From Leucobacter chironomi DSM 19883 (GTDB taxonomy: Bacteria > Actinomycetota > Actinomycetes > Actinomycetales > Microbacteriaceae): a DNA stretch of 64,000 nucleotides. The stretch spans positions 62,001-126,000 of the forward strand of contig NZ_ATXU01000004.1 of NCBI RefSeq assembly GCF_000421845.1, read 5' to 3'. The notes beneath the pieces are model-generated. The model saw only the letters and a program-made list of their open reading frames with translations, was not told the origin of the DNA and made no database searches. Below, one piece after another: positions 2,134 through 55,730 of the stretch. A program made the translations under genes and the position numbers. Each line of letters starts with the position of its first letter. Positions within the stretch are counted from its first letter, which is position 1.

Positions 2134-2251
2134 TCGTAACACTTCGTAGTTCATACGGCGCAACATGCGGGCTCCGCGTCGGTGGTGCGGGATAGCGTGT
2201 GGAGCACCGGACAGCTTCCGGCATCCCACGCCCCCGAACCGAAGGACCCGC

Positions 2252-4600
2252 ATGTCCGCAACGACGCCTCTGCCCAACGCCACGATCCTCGGATACCCGC
2301 GCCTCGGCCGCCGCCGCGAACTGAAGCGGGCCATCGAGTCCTACTGGAAGGGCAGCACCGGCGAAGCAGAGCTCGTCGAGACGGCGCGCGAGCTGCGCGC
2401 CGCGACGCGCTCCCGGCTCGTCGAGCTCGGCCTGCCCGCGACGGGCGGAGCGGTGCCCGAGAGCTTCAGCTTCTACGATCAGGTGCTCGACGCGACCCTC
2501 GCGCTCGGCGCGATCCCGGGGCGCTTCGCCGATGTCGTCGCCGGTGCGAGCGATCTCGACGTCTACTTCGCTCTTGCGCGCGGCGACAAGGACCACCAGC
2601 CGCTCGAGATGACCAAGTGGTTCGACACGAACTACCACTACAGCGTGCCCGAGATCGACGAGCGCACCTCCTTCGCCGCGAACCCGGCCGCCCTCGTGGC
2701 GCAGCTCGTCGAGGCCGCTCAGCAGGGCATCGCATCGCGCCCCGTGCTCGTCGGCCCGGTCACCTACCTGCTGCTCGCGAAGGCGTCCGATGACGCCGCG
2801 CCGGGTTTCCGCCCGATCGACCGTCTCGACGAGGTCGTCGCGGTCTACGCCGAGCTGCTGGGCGCGCTCGCCGCGGCAGGGGCCGGCTGGGTGCAGCTCG
2901 ACGAGCCCGCCCTCGTCTCCGACTCCCTCGCCGTGCCGCGCGAGGAGGCGCTCGCACTGGCCGAGCGCGCGTACGGCGTGCTCGGCGCCGCCGCGACGGC
3001 CGGCGACGCCGTTCAACGCCCGCAGATCCTGCTCACGGCCCCCTACGGCGATTCCTCGGCTGCGCTGCTGCGCCTCGCCGCTCTGCCCGTCGAGGCGGTG
3101 CAGACGGACCTCGTGCGCGGCACGCTGCCGATCGAGGCCCACGACTCCGGCGCGCTCGCCCGCGCCTTCGAGGGCACGCAGCTCGTCGCGGGCGTCGTCG
3201 ACGGCCGCAACATCTGGCGCACCGATCTGCGTAAGGCCTTCGGCACCGCCGAGGCGCTGCGGGCGTCGGGCGTCGACGTCGTCATCGGCACCTCCAACAA
3301 CCTCCAGCACGTGCCGCACGACGTGAACGACGAGACGAAGCTCGACGAGCGCCTGAAGTCGTGGCTCGCCTTCGCCGATCAGAAGGTCGAGCAGGCGGCG
3401 ATCCTCGCCCGCGGCCTCGCCGAGGGCGCTGCGGCCATCGAGGGCGAACTGGCCGAGGTCGATCGGGTGCTCGCGGATCGCGCAGCGGCGCCCGGGGTGC
3501 GCGTCGACGGCATCCGCGACCGCGTCTCGGCCGTGGCCGAGGCCGACCGCAGCCGCGCCGACGAGGGCGACCGGCGCGAGGCGCAGCGCGCGCTCGGCAT
3601 CCCCAGCCTCGCCACCACCACGATCGGCTCGTTCCCCCAGACCACCGAGATCCGCAAGGCCCGGGCCGCGTTCACGCGCGGCGAGATCGATCAGGCGGCC
3701 TACGACGGCTTCCTCCGCGAGGAGATCGAGCGCGTCATCCGGCTGCAGGAGCAGATCGGTCTCGACGTGCTCGTGCACGGCGAGGCCGAGCGCAACGACA
3801 TGGTGCAGTACTTCGCCGAACTGCTCGACGGCTTCGCGGTCACCGAGCACGGCTGGGTGCAGTCGTACGGCACGCGCGCCACGCGCCCCTCGCTCCTGTG
3901 GGGCGACGTGTCGCGGCCCGCCGCGATGACCGTCGCGTGGTCGGCGTACGCGCAGTCGCTCACCGACCGCCTCGTCAAGGGCATGCTGACGGGCCCCGTC
4001 ACGATCCTCGCGTGGTCGTTCGTGCGCGACGACCAGCCGCTCGCCGACACCGCCAATCAGGTGGCGCTCGCCCTGCGCGACGAGATCGACGACCTCGTCA
4101 AGGCCGGCATCAAGATCGTGCAGGTCGACGAGCCCGCCCTGCGCGAGCTGCTGCCGCTCGACGCCGACCGCCAGGCCGCCTACCTCGACTGGTCGGTCGG
4201 GGCGTTCCGCCTCGCGACGAGCGGCGCGGCGGCCGAGGTGCAGATCCACACGCACCTCTGCTACTCCGAGTTCGGCGAGATCATCGACGCCGTCGACGGT
4301 CTCGACGCCGATGTGACCTCGATCGAGGCGGCCCGCAGCCGCATGGACGTGGTGGAGCCCCTCGGCGATCACGGCTACTCGCGCGGCATCGGCCCGGGCG
4401 TCTACGACATCCACTCTCCGCGCGTGCCGAGCGTCGAGGAGCAGACCGACCTCATCCGCATCGCCGCGAACCGCATCCCCGGCGAGCAGCTGTGGGTGAA
4501 CCCGGACTGCGGCCTCAAGACCCGCGGCTACGAGGAGACCGTGGCGAGCCTCACGAACCTCGTGCGGGCGGCACAGGCGGTGCGCGAAGGAGCGGTGTGA
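2252..4600 (+). CDS. metE: Cobalamin-independent methionine synthase MetE
   Basis: 782 residues, the normal MetE size. It transfers the methyl group of 5-methyltetrahydropteroyl-polyglutamate to homocysteine, the last step of methionine synthesis, in the cytosol. The N-terminal half carries ILGYPRLGRRRELKRA, and the catalytic half begins near LATTTIGSFPQTTEIRKAR. Zinc/homocysteine ligands are visible as H668 and C670 (HTHLCYSEF) and C753 (NPDCGLKTRG). They keep the spacing of E. coli H641, C643 and C726. ATG 2252 follows AAGGA; a longer upstream frame has no MetE similarity. It is first gene of metE - MetE-like - metF, whose members overlap by 4 bp. A TAGCGT hexamer near 2193 may be the -10. 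I saw no SAM or B12 riboswitch in the 151-bp gap. Confidence 0.97.
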   Translation: MSATTPLPNATILGYPRLGRRRELKRAIESYWKGSTGEAELVETARELRAATRSRLVELGLPATGGAVPESFSFYDQVLDATLALGAIPGRFADVVAGASDLDVYFALARGDKDHQPLEMTKWFDTNYHYSVPEIDERTSFAANPAALVAQLVEAAQQGIASRPVLVGPVTYLLLAKASDDAAPGFRPIDRLDEVVAVYAELLGALAAAGAGWVQLDEPALVSDSLAVPREEALALAERAYGVLGAAATAGDAVQRPQILLTAPYGDSSAALLRLAALPVEAVQTDLVRGTLPIEAHDSGALARAFEGTQLVAGVVDGRNIWRTDLRKAFGTAEALRASGVDVVIGTSNNLQHVPHDVNDETKLDERLKSWLAFADQKVEQAAILARGLAEGAAAIEGELAEVDRVLADRAAAPGVRVDGIRDRVSAVAEADRSRADEGDRREAQRALGIPSLATTTIGSFPQTTEIRKARAAFTRGEIDQAAYDGFLREEIERVIRLQEQIGLDVLVHGEAERNDMVQYFAELLDGFAVTEHGWVQSYGTRATRPSLLWGDVSRPAAMTVAWSAYAQSLTDRLVKGMLTGPVTILAWSFVRDDQPLADTANQVALALRDEIDDLVKAGIKIVQVDEPALRELLPLDADRQAAYLDWSVGAFRLATSGAAAEVQIHTHLCYSEFGEIIDAVDGLDADVTSIEAARSRMDVVEPLGDHGYSRGIGPGVYDIHSPRVPSVEEQTDLIRIAANRIPGEQLWVNPDCGLKTRGYEETVASLTNLVRAAQAVREGAV

Positions 4601-5775: not shown

Positions 5776-6677
5776 GCCCGGTGCCGCTCGCGGGCAGCGC
5801 GCCCACCCGCGCCCGTTTCTCCTTCGAGGTGTTCCCCGCGCGCAGCGGGGCGGCGGCGCTCGCGCTCGGGCACGCCGTGCAGCACCTCTCGGCGGCGGGG
5901 CCCGACTTCATCTCGGTCACCTACGGGGCGAACGGATCCAACCGCGACGCCTCGCTCGACCTGCTGCGGTATCTGCGCGACCACACCGACGCGCTGCCGC
6001 TCGCCCACCTCACCACGGTCGGCGAGAGCCGCGACGCGGTGCGCGAGACGATCCATCGCATCATGGACGCCGGCGTGCACGACTTCCTCGCCCTGCGCGG
6101 AGACCCGCCGCGCGGCCTCGACGAGGGCGCCCCCGCCGTCGCGGGATCGCTGTCGTCGCGCGAACTGGTCGAGCTCATCGCCGAGGCCCGCGCCGAACGG
6201 CCGCCGCTCACGAGCGTCGGGCGCACCTCGGTCGCCGCGTACCCGAACGGCCATCCGCTGTCGCGTTCGCGCTCTGAGGACATCGACTGGCTCGTCGCGA
6301 AGCAGGAGGCGGGGGCGCAGTTCGCGATCACTCAGCTCTTCTTCCGGGCCGAGGAGTACCTGTCGTTCGTGAACGATGCCCAGCGGGCGGGGTTGCGCAT
6401 CCCGGTGCTGCCGGGCCTCATGCCGGTCTCGACGAGCGCCCAGCTGCGCAAGGTGGCCTCGCTGGCCGGTCGACCTGCCCCCGAGGGCTTGACCCGAGCG
6501 CTCGACGAGGCCGGGGGATACGCGCCCGAGCTGGGCGTCGAGCACACGCTCGAACTCGCCCGCGAGCTGCTCGCCGGGGGCGCGCCCTCGGTGCATCTCT
6601 ACACCTTCAACAGGCACGAGCAGGTGCTCTCGGTGCTGCGGGAGCTCGAACTGCTGACGCCGGATCCGGTCGCCTGA
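5772..6677 (+). CDS. metF: Methylenetetrahydrofolate reductase MetF
   Basis: 301 residues, the size of bacterial MetF. This flavoprotein reduces 5,10-methylene-THF to 5-methyl-THF, the methyl donor for MetE. Recognisable family sequence includes FSFEVFPARSG at the N-terminus (catalytic Glu of the FEFFPP-type motif), PDFISVTYGANGSNRD, a DFLALRGDPPRG segment and GAQFAITQLFF. The GTG start overlaps the preceding stop by 4 bp. Making the methyl donor in the same operon as MetE is a common bacterial arrangement. It ends 39 bp before the convergent lexA stop, with a hairpin between. Confidence 0.96.
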   Translation: MSPVPLAGSAPTRARFSFEVFPARSGAAALALGHAVQHLSAAGPDFISVTYGANGSNRDASLDLLRYLRDHTDALPLAHLTTVGESRDAVRETIHRIMDAGVHDFLALRGDPPRGLDEGAPAVAGSLSSRELVELIAEARAERPPLTSVGRTSVAAYPNGHPLSRSRSEDIDWLVAKQEAGAQFAITQLFFRAEEYLSFVNDAQRAGLRIPVLPGLMPVSTSAQLRKVASLAGRPAPEGLTRALDEAGGYAPELGVEHTLELARELLAGGAPSVHLYTFNRHEQVLSVLRELELLTPDPVA

Positions 6678-6684
6678 GGAGGGG

Positions 6685-6712
6685 CGGCGAGGCGGGGACG
6701 CCCCGCCGCCGC
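6685..6712. terminator. Hairpin between convergent metF and lexA
   Basis: GGCGGGG-ACG-CCCCGCC (6691-6707) forms a perfect 7-bp stem, extended outward with a bulge. It lies in the 39-bp convergent gap and could end transcription in either direction. Confidence 0.5.
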
Positions 6713-6716
6713 GCCG

Positions 6717-7376
6717 TCAGACGGAGCGGAAGACCGCGACGACGCGGCCCAGCACCTCGGCGTGGTCGCCGAGGATGGGCTCGAAGGCGCTGTTGCGGGG
6801 GAGGAGCCAGGTGTGGCCGTCGCGGCGGCGGAACACCTTGACCGTGGCCTCGCCGTCGAGCATGGCTGCGACGATGTCGCCGTTCTCGGCCTCGCGCTGC
6901 TGGCGCACGACGACGAAGTCGCCGTCGCAGATCGCGGCGTCGATCATGGAATCGCCGACCACGCGCAGCATGAACAGCTGCCCGTCGCCCACGAGCTGGC
7001 GGGGGAGCGGCACGATCTCTTCGACCTGCTGCTCGGCGGTGATGGGGACGCCGGCCGCGATCTGTCCGACGAGCGGCACGTAGGCGGCCTCCTCCACCTG
7101 CTGCGAGGGCGACTCGGCGATGGCCGCGCTGGTGCTCGCGAGCTCGACGAGGATCTCGAGTGCGCGGGGGCGGTTCGGGTCGCGTCGGATGTATCCGCCG
7201 AGCTCGAGACGGCTGAGCTGGTGCGTCACGCTCGAGAGCGAGGAGAGGCCGACCGCATCGCCGATCTCGCGCATGCTGGGCGGGTAGCCCCGGGTCTCGA
7301 CGGAGCGGGCGATGCATTCGAGGATCGCCTGCTGCTTCTCGCTGAGGGGCTTCCGGGAGTGGGGAGCGTCGCTCAT
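6717..7376 (-). CDS. lexA: SOS repressor LexA
   Basis: 219 residues. It represses DNA-damage genes and self-cleaves when RecA filaments form. The N-terminal winged helix reads [20 protein letters not shown] and [16 protein letters not shown]. The self-cleavage bond is Ala108-Gly109 (GQIAAGVPI). The catalytic dyad is Ser143 ([10 protein letters not shown]) and Lys180 (GEATVKVF), so the protease fold is intact. The gene is divergent from a LysM-domain gene across a 264-bp gap that contains three similar LexA-type boxes, so autoregulation together with SOS control of the neighbour is likely. Confidence 0.98.
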
Positions 7377-45517: not shown

Positions 45518-46591
45518 ATGACCTATTCAGTGGCGGTGGCCGGGGCGAGCGGGTACGCCGGAGGCGAGCTGCTGCGCCTGCTCGCCGCGCACCCGGAGTT
45601 CGAGATCCGCACGGTCACGGGGCACTCCACGGCGGGGCGCCCCCTCATCGAGTCCCAGCCGCATCTGCGCTCGCTCTCTCACCTCGTGCTGCAGCCGACC
45701 GAGCCCGCGGTGCTCGACGGCCACGACGTCGTCTTCTTCGCCCTGCCGCACGGCGCATCGGGCGAGCTCACCGCGCAGCTGCGCGATGTGCGCCTCGTGA
45801 TCGACTGCGGTGCCGACCACAGGCTCGTCGACGCCGCCGACTGGGCGGCGTTCTACGGCGGCGAGCACCACGGCGCCTGGGAGTACGGCGTGCCCGAGCT
45901 CATCAAGGCCGAGCTCGCCGCCGACGGCACCCCGATCTGGACGCGGCAGCGCGAATACCTGGCCGGGGCGACGCGGATCGCGGCGCCCGGATGCAACGCG
46001 TCGACTGTCGCGCTCTCGCTCGCCCCCGGCATCGCCGCGGGCGTGATCGACCCTCGCGACATCGTGAGCGTGCTCGCCGTCGGGCCGAGCGGCGCGGGCA
46101 AGGCCGCGAAGACGCACCTGCTGGGGGCCGAGCTCATGGGCACCGCGAACCCCTATGCCGTAGGCGGCACGCACCGGCACATCCCTGAGATCCGGCAGGC
46201 GCTGCGCGGGGCGGGCGCCTCGGTCGAACCCAGCATCAGCTTCACGCCCGTGCTCGTGCCGATGAGCCGCGGCATCCTCGCGACCTCGACCGCTCGGCTC
46301 GTGCCGGGCGTCACCGCGCAGCAGGTTCGCAGCGCCTGGGAAGACGCCTACACCGCCGAGCCCTTCGTGCAGCTGTTGCCCGAGGGCGCGTTCCCGCGCA
46401 CCGCCGACACTCTCGGAGCCAACACCTGCCTGATGGGCCTCGCGATCGACGAGGCCGCGGGCCGCGTGGTGGTGGTGGCCGCCCTCGACAACCTCGCGAA
46501 GGGCACCGCCGGCGCCGCGATCCAGTCGGCGAACATCGCCCTCGGTATCCACGAGACCACCGGCCTGCCGGTGAACGGCGTCGCCCCGTGA
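45518..46591 (+). CDS. argC: N-acetyl-gamma-glutamyl-phosphate reductase ArgC
   Basis: 357 residues. NADP-binding [18 protein letters not shown] and the catalytic Cys159 ([13 protein letters not shown]). It reduces N-acetylglutamyl phosphate to the semialdehyde in arginine synthesis. GGAGGG lies about 8-13 nt before ATG 45518; TAGACG at 45491-45496 is a possible -10. First gene of argC-argJ-argB. Confidence 0.97.
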
Positions 46592-46623
46592 CGGGCGCGC
46601 ACGCAGCAGAAGAAGGAGCAGCA

Positions 46624-47781
46624 GTGAGCGTCACCGCACCCCAGGGCTTCACCTCGGCGGGAATCGCCGTCGGCCTGAAGAGCACCGGCAAGCCCGACCT
46701 CGCCCTCGTCGTCAACGACGGACCCGAGCCGGCCTCCGCCGTCGTGTTCACGAGCAACCGCGCCCAGGCGAATCCCATCCTGTGGAGCCGCAAGGTGGCC
46801 CAGAACGGCCCCGCTCGCGCGATCATCCTCAACTCGGGCGGCGCGAACTGCTTCACCGGCGACTTCGGCTACGAGACGACCAGGCTCACCGCCGAAGCCG
46901 TCGCCGCCGCGATCGGCGACGCCGACGCCGAGCAGATCCTGGTCTGCTCCACCGGCCTCATCGGCACCGGCGACCAGGCCTTCCGCGACAAGATCGTGAG
47001 CAACGTGCCGTCTCTCGCCGCCGCGCTCGCCGCCGACGACACGACCGCGCCCGCCGCGATCCTCACCACCGACTCGGTCGAGAAGACCGCCGTGCACGTG
47101 GGCGAGGGATGGACGATCGGCGCCATGGCGAAGGGCGCGGGCATGCTCGCACCGGGCCTCGCGACCATGCTCGTCGTGATCACCACCGATGCTCTGCTCG
47201 ACGGCGACGCCCTCGACCGGGCGCTGCGCCGCGCCACGGGCGCGAGCTTCGACAGGCTCGACAGCGACGGCTGCATGTCGACGAACGACCAGGTGACGCT
47301 GCTCGCGAGCGGCGCGTCGGGCGTCGTGCCCGACGCTGACGCCTTCGCCGATGCTCTGGCCGCCGTCTGCGACAGCCTCGCCGCGCAGCTGCAGGCAGAC
47401 GCCGAGGGTGCGAGCCACGACATCGACATCGAGGTGCGAGGCGCCGCGAGCGAGGCCGACGCCGTCGAGGTCGGCCGATCCGTCGCCCGCAACAACCTGT
47501 TCAAAGCCGCGATCTTCGGCAACGACCCGAACTGGGGCCGCGTGCTCGCCGCGATCGGCACCACCGAGGCGGCCTTCGACCCGTATCAGGTCGACGTGAG
47601 CTTCAACGGCGTGCGCCTCTGCCACGCGGGCGGCCCTGACCGCCCCGTCGAGGAGTGCGACCTGACGCCCCGCCGCACGCACGTCGAGATCGACCTGTTC
47701 TCCGGCGATCACACCGCCACGATCCGCACCAACGACCTCACGCACGACTACGTGCACGAGAACTCGGCGTACTCCAGTTAG
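46624..47781 (+). CDS. argJ: Glutamate N-acetyltransferase ArgJ
   Basis: 385 residues. An Ntn-type precursor that self-cleaves before Thr181 ([14 protein letters not shown]) into two chains. ArgJ recycles acetyl groups from N-acetylornithine to glutamate. GTG 46624 is chosen because AAGGAG lies at 46613-46618; GTG 46588 upstream has no ribosome site. Confidence 0.96.
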
Positions 47782-47788
47782 GCAGATC

Positions 47789-48691
47789 ATGACCACCACC
47801 ACGAGAACCCTCGACCACGAGCAGGCGGCCGGCAAGGCGCAGGTGCTCATCGAGTCGCTGCCGTGGCTCAAGAAGTTCCGCGGCAGGATCATGGTGATCA
47901 AGTTCGGCGGCAACGCGATGGTCGATGACGCCCTGCTCGCCGCCTTCGCCGAGGACGTGGTGTACCTGCGGCACACGGGGATCCTGCCCGTCGTCGTGCA
48001 CGGAGGCGGTCCGCAGATCAACGCGATGCTGGCGCGGCTCGGCATCGAGAGCGAGTTCAAGGGCGGTTACCGCGTCACCACGCCCGAGACGATGGACGTG
48101 GTGCGCATGGTGCTCACCGGCAAGGTGAACCCCGAGCTCGTCGACGAGATCAACGCGCACGGGCCGCTCGCCGCGGGCACTACGGGGGAGGATGCGGGGC
48201 TCTTCATCGGCCGCCGGCGCCCACCCGTCGAAGTCGACGGCGAGCTGGTCGATCTGGGGCTCGTGGGCGACGTCGTCGACGTGCGCCCGGAGCCGGTGCT
48301 GGCGCTGCTCGAAGCGGGGCTGATCCCGGTGGTGTCGTCGATCGCGCCCGATGTCGATCGCCCGGGCGACTCCCTCAATGTCAACGCCGACGCGGCGGCG
48401 TCTGCGCTCGCGGCGGCGCTCGGCGCCGAGAAGCTGGTGATCCTCACCGATGTGGCGGGCCTCTACGCGAACTGGCCCGACCTCGACTCGCTCGTGTCGA
48501 GCATCTCGGCGAGCGAGCTCGAGACGCTGCTGCCGTCGCTCGAAAGCGGCATGATCCCGAAGATGCGCGCCTGCCTCGACGCCGTGCGCGGCGGGGTGCC
48601 GAAGGCCGCGATCATCGACGGCCGCGAACCGCACTCGGTGCTGCTCGAGATCTTCACGGAGCGCGGCATCGGTACGGAGGTCACTCCCTAG
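47789..48691 (+). CDS. argB: Acetylglutamate kinase ArgB
   Basis: 300 residues. [13 protein letters not shown] and [19 protein letters not shown] form the phosphate-binding loops of the amino acid kinase fold. It phosphorylates N-acetylglutamate and is usually feedback inhibited by arginine. It lies 7 bp after argJ. The usual next genes (argD, argF, argR) do not follow in this window. Confidence 0.97.
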
Positions 48692-48924
48692 GGCGGGCGG
48701 ATCGGCGCCTCCGGCGCCACGGCTCCGTTCCCGGCGCCACGGGGCGGTCTAGGCCTGGTTCGGGCCCGCCCCCGATCCGCCCCGACCCGCGCCGGATCCA
48801 CCGCACCCCGCACCCCGCAGCCCCCGTCTAGCATCCGTACGCGCCTGCTGGCAAGGCCCTTTCCGCGGCTACGGCTGATGCGTAGCGTGAGCCGTGACAG
48901 GACTGCGGAGATGGAGTGTGTGTC

Positions 48925-50232
48925 ATGGCTATGCGACGGAATCGACGGATCTGGGCAGTGGCGGCTGGAGTCTCGGCGGCGGCGCTCGCGCTCACGGGTT
49001 GCGGCTCGGGAGGCGGCGGTGGTGCCGACGGCGGGGACGGCGAATTCTCGGGGGAGACACTGAATGTGGTGGCGGCCTGGTCGGGCGCGGAGCAGAAGAA
49101 CTTCGAGGCGGTGCTCGACGAGTTCAGCTCGCGCACCGGGGCGAAGGTGAACTACACGAGCTTCGGCGACAACGGCCCCACCTACATCCAGGGGCAGCTC
49201 GAGGGCGGCACCCCGCCGAACGTGGCGGTGCTGGGCCAGCCGGCGCTCATGCAGTCGCTCGCGCAGGACGGCGACATCAAGCCGGTCGGCGACGGCGTGC
49301 GATCGGCGGTCGAGGAGAACTACGCGCAGGACTGGATCGACCTCGGCTCGGTCGACGGCGAGCTCTACGGCGTGTGGTTCAAGGGCGCGAACAAGTCGAC
49401 GGTCTGGTACAACGCCGATATCTACGAGGAGGCCGGTGCGACGGAGCCCGAGGACTGGGACGACTTCATGACCCAGCTCGGCCTGGTGAGCGACGCCGGC
49501 TACGCGGGCATCTCGATCGGCGCGGACGTGGGCTGGCCGCTCACCGACTGGTTCGAGAACGTGTACCTGCGCACGGCGGGGCCGGAGAAGTACGATCAGC
49601 TGACGAAGCACGAGATCCCGTGGACGGACGACTCGGTGAAGGAGGCGCTCGGCGTGCTCGGCGAGCTGTGGGGGAGCGACCTCGTGCAGCCGGGCGGAGA
49701 TCAGCGCGACTTCCCGACGAGCGTGACCGAGGTCTTCGGTTCCGACCCGCAGGCGGGCACGGTGTTCGAGGGCGACTTCGTGGCGGGCAACATCGCGGCG
49801 GACGGCAACTCGACGGTCGGCGAGAACGCGCTCTTCTACGACTTCCCCTCGGTGAACGGCTCGGCGCCGTCGGTGGTGGGCGGCGGCGATGTCGCGGTCC
49901 AGTTCGACGACGGCGCGGCGACGACGGCGCTCATGGAGTACCTCGCCTCGCCTGAGGCGGCGGAGATCTGGGTGCCGAACGGCGGCCTGACCTCCCCGAA
50001 CGGCTCGGTCGACACCTCGCTGTACCCGGATGACGTCTCCCGTCAGATCGCTGAGGCGCTGACCGGGGCCGAGGAGCTGCGCTTCGACATGTCGGATCTC
50101 ACGCCGAGCGCCTTCGGCGGCACGCCGGGGCAGGGGTTCTGGCAGGAGATGATCTCCTTCTACCAGAACCCGAGCGACATCGACGGCACGGCGCAGCGGC
50201 TCGAAGACGCCGCCGTCAAGGCATACCAGTAG
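48925..50232 (+). CDS. Sugar ABC transporter solute-binding lipoprotein
   Basis: 435 residues. The lipobox is ALALTGCGSGG (Cys about 26), then a family-1 extracellular binding fold: ETLNVVAAWSGAEQKNFEAVLDEFSSR, GVWFKGANKSTVWYNADIYEEAG and MEYLASPEAAEIW. Alpha-glucoside-type ligand is likely because GH65 and phosphoglucomutase-like genes follow. ATG 48925 has GGAG 8 nt upstream; GTG 48916 and ATG 48931 are alternatives. It leads a five-gene operon without an ATPase. The 233-bp upstream gap holds a GGCGCC-TCC-GGCGCC hairpin after argB and no clear operator. Confidence 0.93.
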   Translation: MAMRRNRRIWAVAAGVSAAALALTGCGSGGGGGADGGDGEFSGETLNVVAAWSGAEQKNFEAVLDEFSSRTGAKVNYTSFGDNGPTYIQGQLEGGTPPNVAVLGQPALMQSLAQDGDIKPVGDGVRSAVEENYAQDWIDLGSVDGELYGVWFKGANKSTVWYNADIYEEAGATEPEDWDDFMTQLGLVSDAGYAGISIGADVGWPLTDWFENVYLRTAGPEKYDQLTKHEIPWTDDSVKEALGVLGELWGSDLVQPGGDQRDFPTSVTEVFGSDPQAGTVFEGDFVAGNIAADGNSTVGENALFYDFPSVNGSAPSVVGGGDVAVQFDDGAATTALMEYLASPEAAEIWVPNGGLTSPNGSVDTSLYPDDVSRQIAEALTGAEELRFDMSDLTPSAFGGTPGQGFWQEMISFYQNPSDIDGTAQRLEDAAVKAYQ

Positions 50233-50244
50233 GCCGGCGCGGTC

Positions 50245-51600
50245 ATGAGTCGCACGCTCACGGTGCCGGTCCCGATCCGAGATCGCGAACGCACGCTTCG
50301 CGGTGGCGGATCGGCCCGGCGCTGGCTGGTGGTGGCCTCGTTCCTGGGGCCGGGCCTCGTCGTGCTCGGCGCCCTCGTCGTGTACCCGATTGTCTATACG
50401 GTCGTGCGCTCCTTCTTCGACAAGAGCGGCACCGCCTTCGTGGGGTGGCAGAACTACGTCACGATGTTCACGAACGACACCACGTTCACGGCGATCCGCA
50501 ACAACCTGATGTGGGTGGTGGTTGCGCCGGTGACGGTGACGATCATCGGCCTCATATTCGCGGTGCTCGTCGACAAGCTGGGGTGGAAGACGGCGTTCCG
50601 GCTGATCGTGTTCATGCCGATGGCGATCTCGATGCTCGCAGCCGGTGTCATCTTCCGCGGCATGTTCCAGGAGAGTCCGCAGCTGGGCGTGGTGAACGCG
50701 GCCATCGTGGGCGTGCAGAGCCTGTTCGGCGAGCAGTCGAGCTATCCGGGGGCGAAACCGCGCGACGGTGCAGGTCTTGCAGCGGAGAGCGGGATCATCG
50801 CCACCGCCGAGCCGGTGGCTCCGGGGTCGGTGCAGAACTTCCCGCTGACCGGGATCAGGCAGAGCGCGCTGCCGGAGGACGCGGCGGACGCCCGCACCGC
50901 TGCAGAGCCCGGCGGCACGGAGATCTCTGGCACCGTGTTCCTCGACGTGATCCGCGGCGGGGGAGGCACGGACGGCGAGATCGAGGCCGGCAAGAAGGGG
51001 CTCGCGGGGGTGCGGGTGGATGCGGTCGCCGAGGACGGCTCGATCCACGGCTACGCGACGACAGGAGCCGGCGGCGCGTTCACGATCGAGGGCCTCGACG
51101 CGGGGGAGCAGTACCGCGTCGCCCTGCCGGCCGCGAACTTCGACGCGGGCGCCCAGGGGGTGTCGTGGCTCAGCGCCTCGTTCATCAACGTGGTGGTGAT
51201 TCTCGCGTACGTCTGGATCTGGGCGGGTTTCGCGATGGTGATGATCGCCTCGGGCCTGTCGGCGATGGATCGCTCGTTGCAGGAGGCCGCCCGCACGGAC
51301 GGCGCGAACGAATGGCAGGTGTTCACGCGGATCACGGCGCCGCTGCTCGCGCCCGTGCTGGTGGTCGTCTTCGTGACGCTCATCATCAACGTGCTGAAGA
51401 TCTTCGACCTGGTCTACGTGATTCCGCCGGGCGCTTCGAAGCCTGCGGCGAACGTGATCGCGGTAGAGATGTGGACGGTCTCGTTCGGCGGCGGCAGCAA
51501 CCAGGGATTGGGTTCGGCGCTCGCGATCCTGCTGCTGGTGCTCGTGCTGCCCTCGATGATCATCAACGTGCGCAGATTCCGAGAGGAGCGGAGCCGATGA
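50245..51600 (+). CDS. Sugar ABC permease with an inserted Cna-B/SdrD-like domain
   Basis: 451 residues, against 290-320 for a normal MalF-type permease of this class. Helices lie at about 28-56, 88-110, 118-140 and then 312-336 onward, with the EAA loop QEAARTDGANEWQVFTRITAPL near 346-367. Residues about 160-305 are an insertion after helix 3 that should face outward. Its second part (226-300) reads like a small beta-sandwich: ISGTVFLDV, GKKGLAGVRVDAVAEDGS, YATTGAGGAFTIEGLDAGEQYRV. This is the pattern of SdrD-B/Cna-B or carboxypeptidase-regulatory-like domains. It may contact the binding protein or the cell wall. The stop overlaps the next permease by 4 bp. Confidence 0.9.
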   Translation: MSRTLTVPVPIRDRERTLRGGGSARRWLVVASFLGPGLVVLGALVVYPIVYTVVRSFFDKSGTAFVGWQNYVTMFTNDTTFTAIRNNLMWVVVAPVTVTIIGLIFAVLVDKLGWKTAFRLIVFMPMAISMLAAGVIFRGMFQESPQLGVVNAAIVGVQSLFGEQSSYPGAKPRDGAGLAAESGIIATAEPVAPGSVQNFPLTGIRQSALPEDAADARTAAEPGGTEISGTVFLDVIRGGGGTDGEIEAGKKGLAGVRVDAVAEDGSIHGYATTGAGGAFTIEGLDAGEQYRVALPAANFDAGAQGVSWLSASFINVVVILAYVWIWAGFAMVMIASGLSAMDRSLQEAARTDGANEWQVFTRITAPLLAPVLVVVFVTLIINVLKIFDLVYVIPPGASKPAANVIAVEMWTVSFGGGSNQGLGSALAILLLVLVLPSMIINVRRFREERSR

Positions 51601-52472
51601 GCGTTGCAACCGCACCGGGCAAGCCCCGCGCCGGCCGGATGATCGCCGCGGCTCTGAGCCGCGGCATCGTGAACGCGATCCTGCTGATCGTGGCGGTCTT
51701 CTGGCTGGTGCCCACGATCGGCCTGCTGCTCACCTCGTTCCGCAGCGCGGGCGACAACGCATCGAGCGGCTGGTGGACGGTGCTCACGAAGCCGGCCGAG
51801 CTCACGATCGAGAACTACTCGAATCTGCTGTCGAACCCGGTCATCACGGGTTCGTTCTGGAACACGATCGTCATCGCGGTGCCGACGACGGTGCTCGTGG
51901 TGGTGCTCGGCGCGCTCGCCGCATACGCCTTCGCCTGGCTGCATTTTCCGGGGCGCGACTGGCTGTTCATCGCCGTGATCGTGCTGCTCGCCGTGCCGCT
52001 GCAGGTGGCGCTGATCCCGCTCGCCAGGCTGTTCGGCTCGCTCGGCATCTTCGGCAGCGTGCTCGGGGTGATCCTGTTCCACACGGCCTTCGGTCTGCCG
52101 TTCGCGATCTTCCTGCTGCGCAACTTCTTCATCCAGGTGCCGGAGGAGATGCTCGAGGCGGCGCGCATCGACGGTGCTCGGGATTGGCGGATCTTCTTCC
52201 AGATCATGATGCCGCTCGCGCTGCCGGCGATCGCGTCACTGGCCATCTTCCAGTTCTTGTGGACCTGGAACGACATGCTCGTCGCGCTGATCTTCACGAA
52301 CACCGATTCGCAGCCGTTGACGGTGGCGATCCAGTCGCAGCTGCGGCAGTTCGGTGCGAACATCGATGTGCTGTCGGCGGGGGCCTTCTTGTCCATGCTG
52401 GTTCCGCTGATAGTGTTTTTCGCATTCCAGCGATACTTCGTACAGGCGCTGCTGGCGGGGTCGCAGAAGTAG
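51597..52472 (+). CDS. Sugar ABC permease, MalG type
   Basis: 291 residues, six helices. The EAA loop is EEMLEAARIDGARDWRIFFQIMMPL. It pairs with the preceding permease. No nucleotide-binding subunit lies in the operon, so a shared MsiK-type ATPase encoded elsewhere is expected, as known for many actinobacterial sugar importers. ATG overlaps the previous stop by 4 bp. Confidence 0.95.
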   Translation: MSVATAPGKPRAGRMIAAALSRGIVNAILLIVAVFWLVPTIGLLLTSFRSAGDNASSGWWTVLTKPAELTIENYSNLLSNPVITGSFWNTIVIAVPTTVLVVVLGALAAYAFAWLHFPGRDWLFIAVIVLLAVPLQVALIPLARLFGSLGIFGSVLGVILFHTAFGLPFAIFLLRNFFIQVPEEMLEAARIDGARDWRIFFQIMMPLALPAIASLAIFQFLWTWNDMLVALIFTNTDSQPLTVAIQSQLRQFGANIDVLSAGAFLSMLVPLIVFFAFQRYFVQALLAGSQK

Positions 52473-52491: not shown

Positions 52492-53196
52492 TTGATCGAC
52501 CGTTACGACGCCTACCTGTTCGATTTGGATGGGGTCATCACGCCGACCGTCGACCTGCACATGAGAGCGTGGGCCGAGACCTTCGACCGATTGTTCGCCG
52601 CTCTGGGGCAGGCGCCGTATCGCGAGAGCGAGTACTACGAGTCGCTCGACGGTCGGCCCCGCTTCGAGGGGGTGGCGACACTGCTGCGGGCGCGCGGCAT
52701 CGTGCTGCCCGAGGGCGAACCCGGCGATGACGGCTTCGAGAGCGTGATCGGGGTGGGCAACCGCAAGAACCGGGTGTTCACCGAGGTGCTGCAGCGCGAC
52801 GGCATCGACCCCTACCCGGGGTCGTTGCGGCTGCTCGACAGACTCGCGGCGCTGGGGCGCCCGCTGGCCGTGGTGTCGAGCTCGCGCAATGCGGAGGCGG
52901 TGCTGCGCGCAGCAGGGCTGCGGGATCGCTTCGAGGCGGTGGTCGACGGGGTCGTCGCCAAGCGGGAGGGTCTGCCGGGGAAGCCCGCGCCGGACACCTT
53001 CCTGCGGGGCGCCGAGCTGCTGGGGGCGGAGCCGGAGCGCACGGCGGTGTTCGAGGACGCCGCGTCGGGAGTCGCTGCGGCGCACGCGGGCCGCTTCGGC
53101 CTGGTGGTCGGGGTGGATCGCGGTGCGGGGGCGGCGATGCTCACGGATGCGGGGGCGGACCTGGTGGTGGCGGATCTGGAGGAGCTTGCACGATGA
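52492..53196 (+). CDS. HAD hydrolase, beta-phosphoglucomutase-like
   Basis: 234 residues. Motif I FDLDGVITPTVDLH with the nucleophile and acid Asp pair, a helical cap, VVSSSRNAEAVLRAAG (motif II), GKPAPDTFLRGAELLG (motif III) and VFEDAASGVAAAHAG (motif IV). Beside GH65 it most likely converts beta-glucose 1-phosphate to glucose 6-phosphate. The start is TTG 52492, with GGGAGGG at 52477-52483; no ATG or GTG precedes the conserved DAYLFDLDG. The stop overlaps the GH65 gene by 4 bp. Confidence 0.9.
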   Translation: MIDRYDAYLFDLDGVITPTVDLHMRAWAETFDRLFAALGQAPYRESEYYESLDGRPRFEGVATLLRARGIVLPEGEPGDDGFESVIGVGNRKNRVFTEVLQRDGIDPYPGSLRLLDRLAALGRPLAVVSSSRNAEAVLRAAGLRDRFEAVVDGVVAKREGLPGKPAPDTFLRGAELLGAEPERTAVFEDAASGVAAAHAGRFGLVVGVDRGAGAAMLTDAGADLVVADLEELAR

Positions 53197-55730
53197 ACCC
53201 GGAACTCTTCGACATTCCCGTGGAGGACCTGCACCGCGACTTCGGCGAGGACCCGTGGCGGCTCGTGGTGCGCGGCATCGACGGCTCGCACGCGGCCGAG
53301 GACGAGACGCTGTTCTCGCTCGCGAACGGCTACCTGGGGCTGCGCGGCAATCATGAGGAGGGGCTGCCGCTCGGCAGCCACGGCACCTTCATCAACGGTC
53401 TGCACGAGACGTGGCGCATCCGCCACGCTGAGAACGCGTACGGCTTCGCCGAGCACGGGCAGACGATCGTGAACGCACCCGACGTGAAGACGATCCGCAT
53501 CTACGTCGACGACGAGCGGCTCAACCTGGAATCGTCGGAGATTCTCGATGTGCAGCGCGTGCTCGACCTGCGCGCCGGCACCCTCACCCGCACGCTGCTG
53601 TGGCTCACCCCCACCGGCAAGCGGGTGCGCGTGGAGACGCGGCGCATGGTGTCGTTCGCGTCGCGGCACCTCGCGACGATCGAGATGCGCGTCACCGTGC
53701 TCGACGCCGACGCGGATCTCACCATCTCCAGCCTCATCATCAACCGGCAGGATCTGCGGCGCGTGCGCGCCGAGAAGGAGGCCACGGGCATCGCGGACCC
53801 CCGCAAGAGCGAGCAGCTGACGGAGGAGCGGATCCTCGACCCCGGCCCTGCCCGTCACGAGGGCGGCCGCAGCGTGCTGAGCTACCGGGTGCACGATTCG
53901 GGCATGACGATGGGGGTGGGCGTCGACCACGACTTCGACGGGGGCGACGCGAGCGAGTGGCAGACCCGCGTCGAGACCTCCTCGGACCGGGTGCGGCACC
54001 TGTTCCAGGGCACCGCCAGGCAGGGGCGCACGGTGCGGCTCGTGAAGACGGCGGCCTACCACTCCTCGGCGACGGCGGGCCCGGAGGAACTGCTCGACCG
54101 CTGCGTGCACACGCTCGCGAAGGTCGCCCCGGAGCCGCCCGAGCTGCGGTGGCAGCGCCAGCGGGAGTTCCTCGACGCGTTCTGGGATCGCAGCGACGTG
54201 CAGGTCGAGGCGGAGCCGGGGGTGCAGCAGGCGATCCGTTGGAACCTGTTCCAGCTCGCACAGGCGGCGGCGCGCGCCGACGGGCGCGGGATCCCGGCGA
54301 AGGGCCTCACCGGATCGGGGTACAGCGGCCACTACTTCTGGGATTCCGAGATCTACGTGCTGCCGTTCCTGAGCTACACGACGCCGCTGTGGGCGCGCAA
54401 TGCGCTGCGCTCTCGGGAGCGGATGCTGGATCAGGCGCGGCGCCGCGCGGTCACGCTGAACGAGGACGGCGCGCTGTTCCCGTGGCGCACGATCAACGGC
54501 GAGGAGGCGAGCGCCTACTACGCCGCGGGCACGGCCGCATACCACATCAACGCCGACATCACCTATGCGCTGGCGCGGTACGTCTTCGCGACGGGCGACT
54601 TCGAGTACCTGCTGTCCGGAGCGTGCGACATCCCCATCGAGACGGCCCGCCTGTGGCGCAGCCTGGGCTTCTGGCGCACGGGGCGCGACGGGGTGAGGCG
54701 CTTCCACATCCACGGCGTCACCGGCCCCGACGAATACACGACCGTGGTGAACGACAACCTCTTCACCAACGTCATGGCGCGCTTCAACCTGCGCGTCGCC
54801 GTGCACATGGTGCGCCGGCTCGAACGGGAGGCTCCGGAGGTCTACGCCGGGCTGCTCGACCGCCTGCGCCTCGACCCCGACGAGGTGCTGGCCTGGGAGG
54901 AGGCGGCCGATGCGATGAGCGTGCCCTACTCGGAGGAGATGGGGATCCACCCGCAGGACGCCCACTTCCTCGACCGCGAGGTGTGGGATCTGGCGGCGAC
55001 GCCGCCCGAGCAGAAGCCGCTGCTGCTGCACTTCCACCCGCTCGTGATCTACCGCTTCCAGGTGCTCAAGCAGGCCGACGTGGTGCTGGCCCTGCTGCTC
55101 GCGGGCGACGATTTCACCCGCGACGAGAAGCTGCGCGACTTCGAGTACTACGACGCGCTCACCACGGGCGATTCGACGCTCTCGGCCGTGGTGCAGTCGA
55201 TCATCGCCGCCGAGGTGGGGTATCCCGAGCTGGCGTACCGCTACTTCGAGCACGCCCTGCGCGTCGACCTCGACGACCTGCACCGCAACTCGGCAGACGG
55301 GGTGCACATCGCCTCCACGGGCGGCGTCTGGATGATGCTCGTGCAGGGGTTCGCGGGGCTGCGCGACTCCGCCGGGAGGCAGCTCGCCTTCGATCCGCGG
55401 CTGCCCGTGCACTGGGATTCGCTGCGCTTCAAACTGGTCTGGCGCGGCTGCCGGATCGCGGTCGAGCTGCGGCGGGATCGCATCGCGTTCGAGATGATCG
55501 AGGGGGAGACGCCCGTCGTGGTGAGCGTGCGCGGCGAGCAGGTCGAGATCGGCCCGCGCGGGCGGCGGGAGGTGGCGCTCGCCGACCAGGGCCCTGATCT
55601 CGGCCCGTTCCGCGGTCTCTCGGCGGGGATGCTGCCGCGGGAGGGCGACACGGGCGTGCTGCCGCCGCTGTACCCCGACGTGCCCGCGGTGACCACGGAG
55701 ATCCCCACGCGCGACTACTCCGAGCTCTGA
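53193..55730 (+). CDS. Glycoside hydrolase family 65 disaccharide phosphorylase
   Basis: 845 residues. GH65 layout: N-terminal beta-sandwich (ETLFSLANGYLGLRGNHEEG), an (alpha/alpha)6 barrel from about 320 to 700, and a C-terminal beta domain. The general acid is Glu514 (GVTGPDEYTTVVNDN). RNSADGVHIASTGGVW near 690 is the phosphate-side region. It splits a glucosyl disaccharide with phosphate to beta-glucose 1-phosphate plus sugar; maltose, trehalose, kojibiose or nigerose cannot be told apart here. The partner mutase overlaps upstream. Confidence 0.93.
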   Translation: MNPELFDIPVEDLHRDFGEDPWRLVVRGIDGSHAAEDETLFSLANGYLGLRGNHEEGLPLGSHGTFINGLHETWRIRHAENAYGFAEHGQTIVNAPDVKTIRIYVDDERLNLESSEILDVQRVLDLRAGTLTRTLLWLTPTGKRVRVETRRMVSFASRHLATIEMRVTVLDADADLTISSLIINRQDLRRVRAEKEATGIADPRKSEQLTEERILDPGPARHEGGRSVLSYRVHDSGMTMGVGVDHDFDGGDASEWQTRVETSSDRVRHLFQGTARQGRTVRLVKTAAYHSSATAGPEELLDRCVHTLAKVAPEPPELRWQRQREFLDAFWDRSDVQVEAEPGVQQAIRWNLFQLAQAAARADGRGIPAKGLTGSGYSGHYFWDSEIYVLPFLSYTTPLWARNALRSRERMLDQARRRAVTLNEDGALFPWRTINGEEASAYYAAGTAAYHINADITYALARYVFATGDFEYLLSGACDIPIETARLWRSLGFWRTGRDGVRRFHIHGVTGPDEYTTVVNDNLFTNVMARFNLRVAVHMVRRLEREAPEVYAGLLDRLRLDPDEVLAWEEAADAMSVPYSEEMGIHPQDAHFLDREVWDLAATPPEQKPLLLHFHPLVIYRFQVLKQADVVLALLLAGDDFTRDEKLRDFEYYDALTTGDSTLSAVVQSIIAAEVGYPELAYRYFEHALRVDLDDLHRNSADGVHIASTGGVWMMLVQGFAGLRDSAGRQLAFDPRLPVHWDSLRFKLVWRGCRIAVELRRDRIAFEMIEGETPVVVSVRGEQVEIGPRGRREVALADQGPDLGPFRGLSAGMLPREGDTGVLPPLYPDVPAVTTEIPTRDYSEL

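Follow-up and report, generated by a model that had tools for sequence, protein, structure and literature searches.

Introduction

Recruitment and orientation of the substrate-binding protein (SBP) by type I importers is known mainly from the P2 domain of Escherichia coli MalF and from short scoop loops. In the sections of PMC3150292 that were available, MalF-P2 covers residues 91-271, residues of P2 contact MalE, and the EAA motif is given as the contact with MalK. The available part of PMC12136057 describes a periplasmic scoop loop as a frequent means by which type I importers contact the SBP. The AglEFG importers are represented by aglFG of Streptomyces coelicolor and by alphaproteobacterial agl operons. 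SCO2979/2980 are named as aglFG, an α-glucoside permease assigned in silico, in the part of PMC7581861 at hand (citing Bertram et al. 2004), and the accessible text of PMC3937824 lists SCO2979 among teichoic-acid genes, with SCO2981-2983 as glycosyltransferases.

The locus analysed here lies in a window of 64,000 nucleotides (the whole stretch of DNA that was analysed) from Leucobacter chironomi DSM 19883. It is similar to the AglEFG importers in the permease core, in the order SBP-permease-permease and in the presence of nearby α-glucoside genes. It differs in that its AglF-type permease contains an additional domain in the P3 loop; the Rhodovulum permease, labelled AglF in this analysis, is 326 aa long and has no insert, and the same is true of the Leptolinea permease and other insert-less relatives. 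The system is of a known kind, a type I carbohydrate importer, and the SdrD_B-related P3 domain is what is new. No description of such a domain was found in the literature consulted, most of it open access.

The gene and its operon

The features of the locus, all on the forward strand (+), are as follows.

48916..50232, +, substrate-binding lipoprotein (SBP, AglE-like); SBP_bac_8, E 4e-9
50245..51600, +, AglF/MalF-type permease with P3 insert; ORF, Pfam and structure matches
50320..50718, +, permease residues 26-158, core helices 1-3 and most of a short helix at 149-161
50734..50922, +, first half of the insert, residues 164-226, conserved YPGAxPR ... AG....PLvG
50923..51156, +, second half of the insert, residues 227-304, SdrD_B/CarboxypepD_reg-like β-domain, GTVFLD...GGGG...NF
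51175..51570, +, permease residues 311-442, core helices 4-6, BPD_transp_1 match
51283..51342, +, EAA coupling loop EAARTDGANEWQVFTRITAP, between core helices 4 and 5; from the sequence and the MalF alignment
51597..52472, +, second permease (AglG-like); BPD_transp_1, E 8e-21
52492..53196, +, HAD hydrolase of the β-phosphoglucomutase family; TIGR02009, 156.6 bits, cut-off 153.35
53193..55730, +, GH65 glycoside hydrolase/phosphorylase; Glyco_hydro_65m, E 1e-109

The permease gene (50245-51600) is a single intact ORF of 451 aa with zero internal stops, and its stop is overlapped by the start of the second permease (ATGA). For the SBP, the ATG at 48925 is a more likely start than the one at 48916, and a lipobox, LTGC, was read by eye at the N-terminus. 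The HAD hydrolase scored under the cut-off of the β-phosphoglucomutase (bPGM) equivalog TIGR01990. The importer is probably an SBP-dependent one for α-glucosides, with the permease as its AglF-type membrane subunit. Because of the neighbouring β-phosphoglucomutase (PGM) and GH65 genes and the kinship with aglFG, an α-linked glucodisaccharide is the likely substrate. No ATPase gene was present within the operon; the one OB_MalK match in the whole genome, indicating a MalK-type ATPase, was located on contig 7 (C7:160073).

The other SdrD_B-like matches of the genome (147387-147548 and 151411-151575) are also on contig 7, in open frames of 1,316 and 1,271 aa and about 9-13 kb from the MalK-type match. 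Upstream in the window, the cassette comes after genes that by eye resemble argC, argJ and argB (45518-48691). At L048, L054 and other Microbacteriaceae loci, the short genes 5' of the SBP resemble, again by eye, those of ribosomal proteins L10 and L7/L12.

Position and limits of the insert

Hydropathy peaks placed the six core helices at about residues 28-46, 91-109, 118-136, 316-334, 363-381 and 422-440, and Pfam BPD_transp_1 covered residues 311-440 with 59.9 bits, above its cut-off of 26.4. A phmmer search against solved structures aligned residues 63-159 to residues 222-325 of the MalF chain 3fh6_F and residues 315-446 to residues 335-476, leaving about 155 permease residues in the place of about ten in MalF. 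The insert of about 145 aa (residues about 162-307) splits core helix 3 from core helix 4, which is the P3 position of MalF. It contains no membrane helix; the highest 19-residue hydropathy mean was 0.89 for stretches starting at residues 160-282. The extra β-domain that the original prediction had placed after helix 3 was supported by hydropathy, alignment and fold prediction. An insert is present where bounds of 160-305 had been claimed, with a real extent nearer 162-307 and a first half that lacks the adhesin-like repeat. A frameshift or annotation artefact was ruled out, as the ORF is intact and the insert is found in 100 of 100 close relatives.

In the MalF/AglF permease family the EAA loop is cytoplasmic. 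The motif EAARTDGA of the permease aligns with EASAMDGA of MalF, and since this loop is cytoplasmic and follows helix 4, the insert, which precedes helix 4, should be extracytoplasmic. The analysis thus supports the expectation that it lies outside the membrane, a conclusion drawn from the order of the helices and the place of the EAA loop. The model of the whole permease had a pLDDT of 75.4 and a pTM of only 0.50, so the orientation of the insert cannot be read from it. The best structural matches of the whole permease were AlgM1 and SugA of LpqY-SugABC, the mycobacterial trehalose importer; the SugA chains are 305-307 aa long and have no P3 domain.

Fold, family and conservation of the insert

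AlphaFold2 prediction of the insert alone, from 52 aligned inserts, gave eight strands with a mean pLDDT of 92.5 and a pTM of 0.87. The insert of the window protein scored below the Pfam cut-offs both for SdrD_B (PF17210; 24.5 bits, cut-off 29.7, E 3e-5) and for CarboxypepD_reg (23.9 bits, cut-off 32.3, E 5e-5). Among the 52 aligned inserts, CarboxypepD_reg matched 41 and SdrD_B 35 at E<=0.01, with best values of 3e-11 and 2e-12, respectively. Searched against solved chains, the insert profile matched SdrD 10ps_A with E 1e-13 over two B repeats, the best single stretch reaching 1.4e-6, and this in the second half only. Further matches were to other SdrD chains, Uro-adherence factor A and NOMO2 (E 4e-4 to 3e-3). 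In VIA-align comparisons SdrD 10ps and 8vdk reached a Z of 5.3, with an rmsd of 2.5 for 73 residues, a Z that may mean no more than a common arrangement, and other β-folds followed at Z 4.8 and below. Foldseek with the insert alone gave zero matches at E<=0.001. With structural scores this modest, it is mainly by sequence that the second half is assigned to SdrD_B; the profile matches relate it to the SdrD_B/CarboxypepD_reg superfamily, and the structure agrees only modestly. The first half (164-226) has conserved motifs and matched no Pfam family in the search with 52 inserts.

Ten residues were invariant across the 52 insert rows: P168, A170, L201, G229, D234, G238, G277, N298, F299 and G305. 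SdrD_B domains have an acidic calcium loop, and Cna-B domains have Lys-Asn isopeptide residues. In the 52 rows D234 is invariant, but the next loop is a conserved GGGG and not acidic. Likewise, N298 is invariant, yet no column held Lys at the 80% level, so a Cna-B-type Lys-Asn isopeptide is not indicated. Compared with the B domains of SdrD of Staphylococcus aureus, which the second half resembles by profile, with the modest Z of 5.3 in structure, the insert differs in sitting in a permease, in having GGGG in place of the acidic metal loop and in carrying an extra first half. Of the Cna-B/SdrD-like repeat that had been predicted, the SdrD_B kinship held for the second half in profile searches, although below the Pfam cut-offs in the window protein itself.

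The insert is under purifying selection in the genus. For 11 same-genus sequences the median pairwise dN/dS was 0.10 in the membrane core, 0.17 in the second half of the insert and 0.35 in the first half, where the value may be inflated by ungapped alignment shifts. Together with the constant length in 100 of 100 relatives, this speaks against a chance feature.

Distribution and ancestry

Insert length was 143-150 aa in all 100 aligned close relatives, which are distinct ORFs with E<1e-100 against the full protein, the window protein included and the split gene of L018 left out. The next matches, from 5e-49 downward, were without the insert. The gene was found in 18 of 54 Leucobacter genomes, one of them with a split gene, and at E<=1e-30 in 14 of 249 genomes of a family sample, including the genome itself and two others of its genus. 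The genus that includes G404 is Streptomyces, two of its loci being 100% identical to named Streptomyces records. Of its 121 genomes, 120 were matched by the family profile at E<=1e-80, and as many by the insert profile on its own at E<=1e-20. At least 550 of at least 592 contig stretches matched by pattern encode relatives, of which the best 80 were kept. In a plasmid collection 97 records matched; the 11 that covered at least 80% of the query were all from Streptomyces or Nonomuraea. The annotated plasmid copies viewed were named merely ABC transporter permease subunit or sugar ABC transporter permease.

The insert profile matched 50 of 346 genomes in a phylum sample, partial matches included. 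Thirty phylum loci were fetched: 21 of them (L122-L142, including that of the window) were permeases and eight (L144-L151) were partial matches in other long ORFs, only L146 matching the query, in the insert part. At L143 (G411) the permease is spread over three frames and at L018 (G022) over two overlapping frames; these are pseudogenes or sequencing errors.

Of 80 named loci, 74 yielded the SBP and both permeases; of the remaining six, five are cut by locus ends and one, L056, has two cassettes. PGM and GH65 genes lay downstream in 4 of the 80, all Leucobacter, though 65 extend at least 3.5 kb beyond the second permease. GH65 was therefore ruled out as a defining partner, and GH65-linked permeases, which the original prediction had proposed for a survey, are the wrong class. 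Other neighbours were a GH13 gene, found upstream in each of three plasmid copies from Streptomyces that were viewed, and a glycosyltransferase/CDP-glycerol glycerophosphotransferase gene, downstream in L069 (Streptomyces); BLAST links the latter to a downstream gene in 27 named loci. The neighbourhood of SCO2979, as given in the accessible text of PMC3937824, resembles L069, and the insert-bearing Streptomyces loci are probably SCO2979 orthologues. In the insert-less Leptolinea relative the second permease is followed by an amylosucrase gene, and the Rhodovulum permease belongs to an agl-like set with an α-amylase-family gene.

In a quick tree with long outgroup branches, built without the insert columns, 41 insert-bearing rows fell on one side of a branch with SH-aLRT 96, 35 insert-less AglF-type rows were grouped (SH-aLRT 93), and so were six other permeases (SH-aLRT 99). 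At the insert-less junctions (15 of the 35 rows viewed) four residues stand where the window protein has 134. The simplest reading of the tree and alignments is probably a single ancestral insertion in the P3 loop; one loss on the insert-less side of the tree is the alternative.

In the phylum relatives L187 and L189-L194, AglF-like permeases lie in ORFs that measure 588-881 aa from stop to stop, that of L192 being truncated at the end of its locus. They have extra N-terminal hydrophobic stretches and, by eye, a different, hydrophobic expansion in the P3 region. P3 may be a recurrent expansion site.

Possible role of the insert

An ordinary MalF P2-type loop, named in advance as the finding that would overturn the original prediction, is likewise extracytoplasmic and of similar size (residues 91-271 in the part of PMC3150292 available). 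P2 lies between core helices 1 and 2, however, whereas the insert lies between helices 3 and 4, and when the insert profile was compared with E. coli MalF 90-280 by hhalign, the probability was 0.7% over 37 columns. Loop position and profile comparison together ruled this reading out, leaving it practically no chance. Long loops between core helices 1 and 2 were seen in the second permeases of L207 (Rhodovulum; 384 aa) and L153 (Leptolinea; 369 aa), and such a loop is absent from the second permease of the window. A swap, with the domain in AglF here and in AglG elsewhere, was rejected as not general, as no long loop was present in 19 second permeases of insert-less loci that were viewed. The loop measure based on regular expressions missed 27 of 61 second permeases of insert-bearing loci.

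By likeness to MalF-P2, the insert is a putative docking domain for the binding lipoprotein, a role to which we give slightly less than an even chance. Both are extracytoplasmic domains of a MalF-type subunit for which a similar role is suggested, but they differ in loop (P2 versus P3) and share no sequence similarity. A composite β-domain inserted between core helices 3 and 4 would stand at the outer side of the transporter, next to the entrance of the translocation path. By contacting the lipid-anchored SBP there, it would hold or orient that protein for delivery of the sugar. MalF-P2 acts in this way on MalE; the insert would do so from a different loop and with a different fold and origin.

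Co-variation was measured as the partial correlation of pairwise distances in 74 sets, with the core and, for the SBP, the second permease removed. Across all sets, the insert correlated with the SBP at 0.38 and with the second permease at 0.16. In 50 mostly Streptomyces sets the values were 0.61 (0 of 500 permutations as high) and -0.02. In 22 other sets, mostly Microbacteriaceae with some Propionibacteriaceae and Actinomycetaceae, they were 0.15 (55 of 500 permutations as high) and 0.40. Given the 0.15 in the latter sets, insert-SBP co-variation is not general, and the higher correlation may be driven by paralogue groups. The docking proposed originally is thus favoured by the 50 sets and not by the 22, and co-variation supports a contact with the SBP in one subset only. 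The insert-less relatives, which evidently manage without the domain, also count against docking.

The 22 sets, where the insert follows the second permease better than the SBP, would instead fit a structural role, in which the domain packs on the extracytoplasmic face of both permeases and there stabilises the entrance of the pore or seals it, with no specific contact to the SBP. Conservation of insert length and fold agrees with such a role. Against it, in the 50 mostly Streptomyces sets it is the SBP, not the second permease, that the insert follows, and AglF relatives exist without the domain; we regard it as unlikely. That the insert is an accessory carbohydrate-binding module, binding sugar at the cell surface or sensing it there, is improbable. 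An extracytoplasmic β-domain within a sugar importer would be suitably placed for this, and some carbohydrate-binding modules were found at Z 3-4, although amid many other β-folds. Conserved aromatic columns are few (161, 167, 232, 279 and 299), no carbohydrate-binding family is among the eight Pfam families that matched the 52 inserts, and no carbohydrate-binding-module row outranked the others in VIA-align; for substrate sensing by the insert, as once suggested, nothing in favour was found. Tethering of the transporter to the wall, as adhesin relatives might suggest, is more doubtful still. The kinship with SdrD_B and the downstream gene of L069 with its 27 BLAST-linked counterparts could point that way, but the missing Lys column speaks against a Cna-B-type isopeptide, the Pfam matches of the 52 inserts include no wall-binding family, and neighbour genes vary between groups. 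This part of the original prediction gained nothing in its favour.

For the docking domain, a fuller account is offered tentatively and with more doubt than belief: an adhesin-type β-domain would have been captured once in P3 of an actinobacterial α-glucoside importer and become an SBP-docking device, convergent with MalF-P2 and near-universal in Streptomyces. A conserved domain that folds separately, sits in another loop and occurs in 120 of the 121 Streptomyces genomes sampled would offer a second test of the docking principle. L060 and L063 each hold insert-bearing and insert-less cassettes together in one locus, so the effect of the domain is directly comparable there. In L056 the two SBP-permease-permease cassettes are in tandem, with the insert-bearing permeases at about 2143-3568 and 5874-7314.
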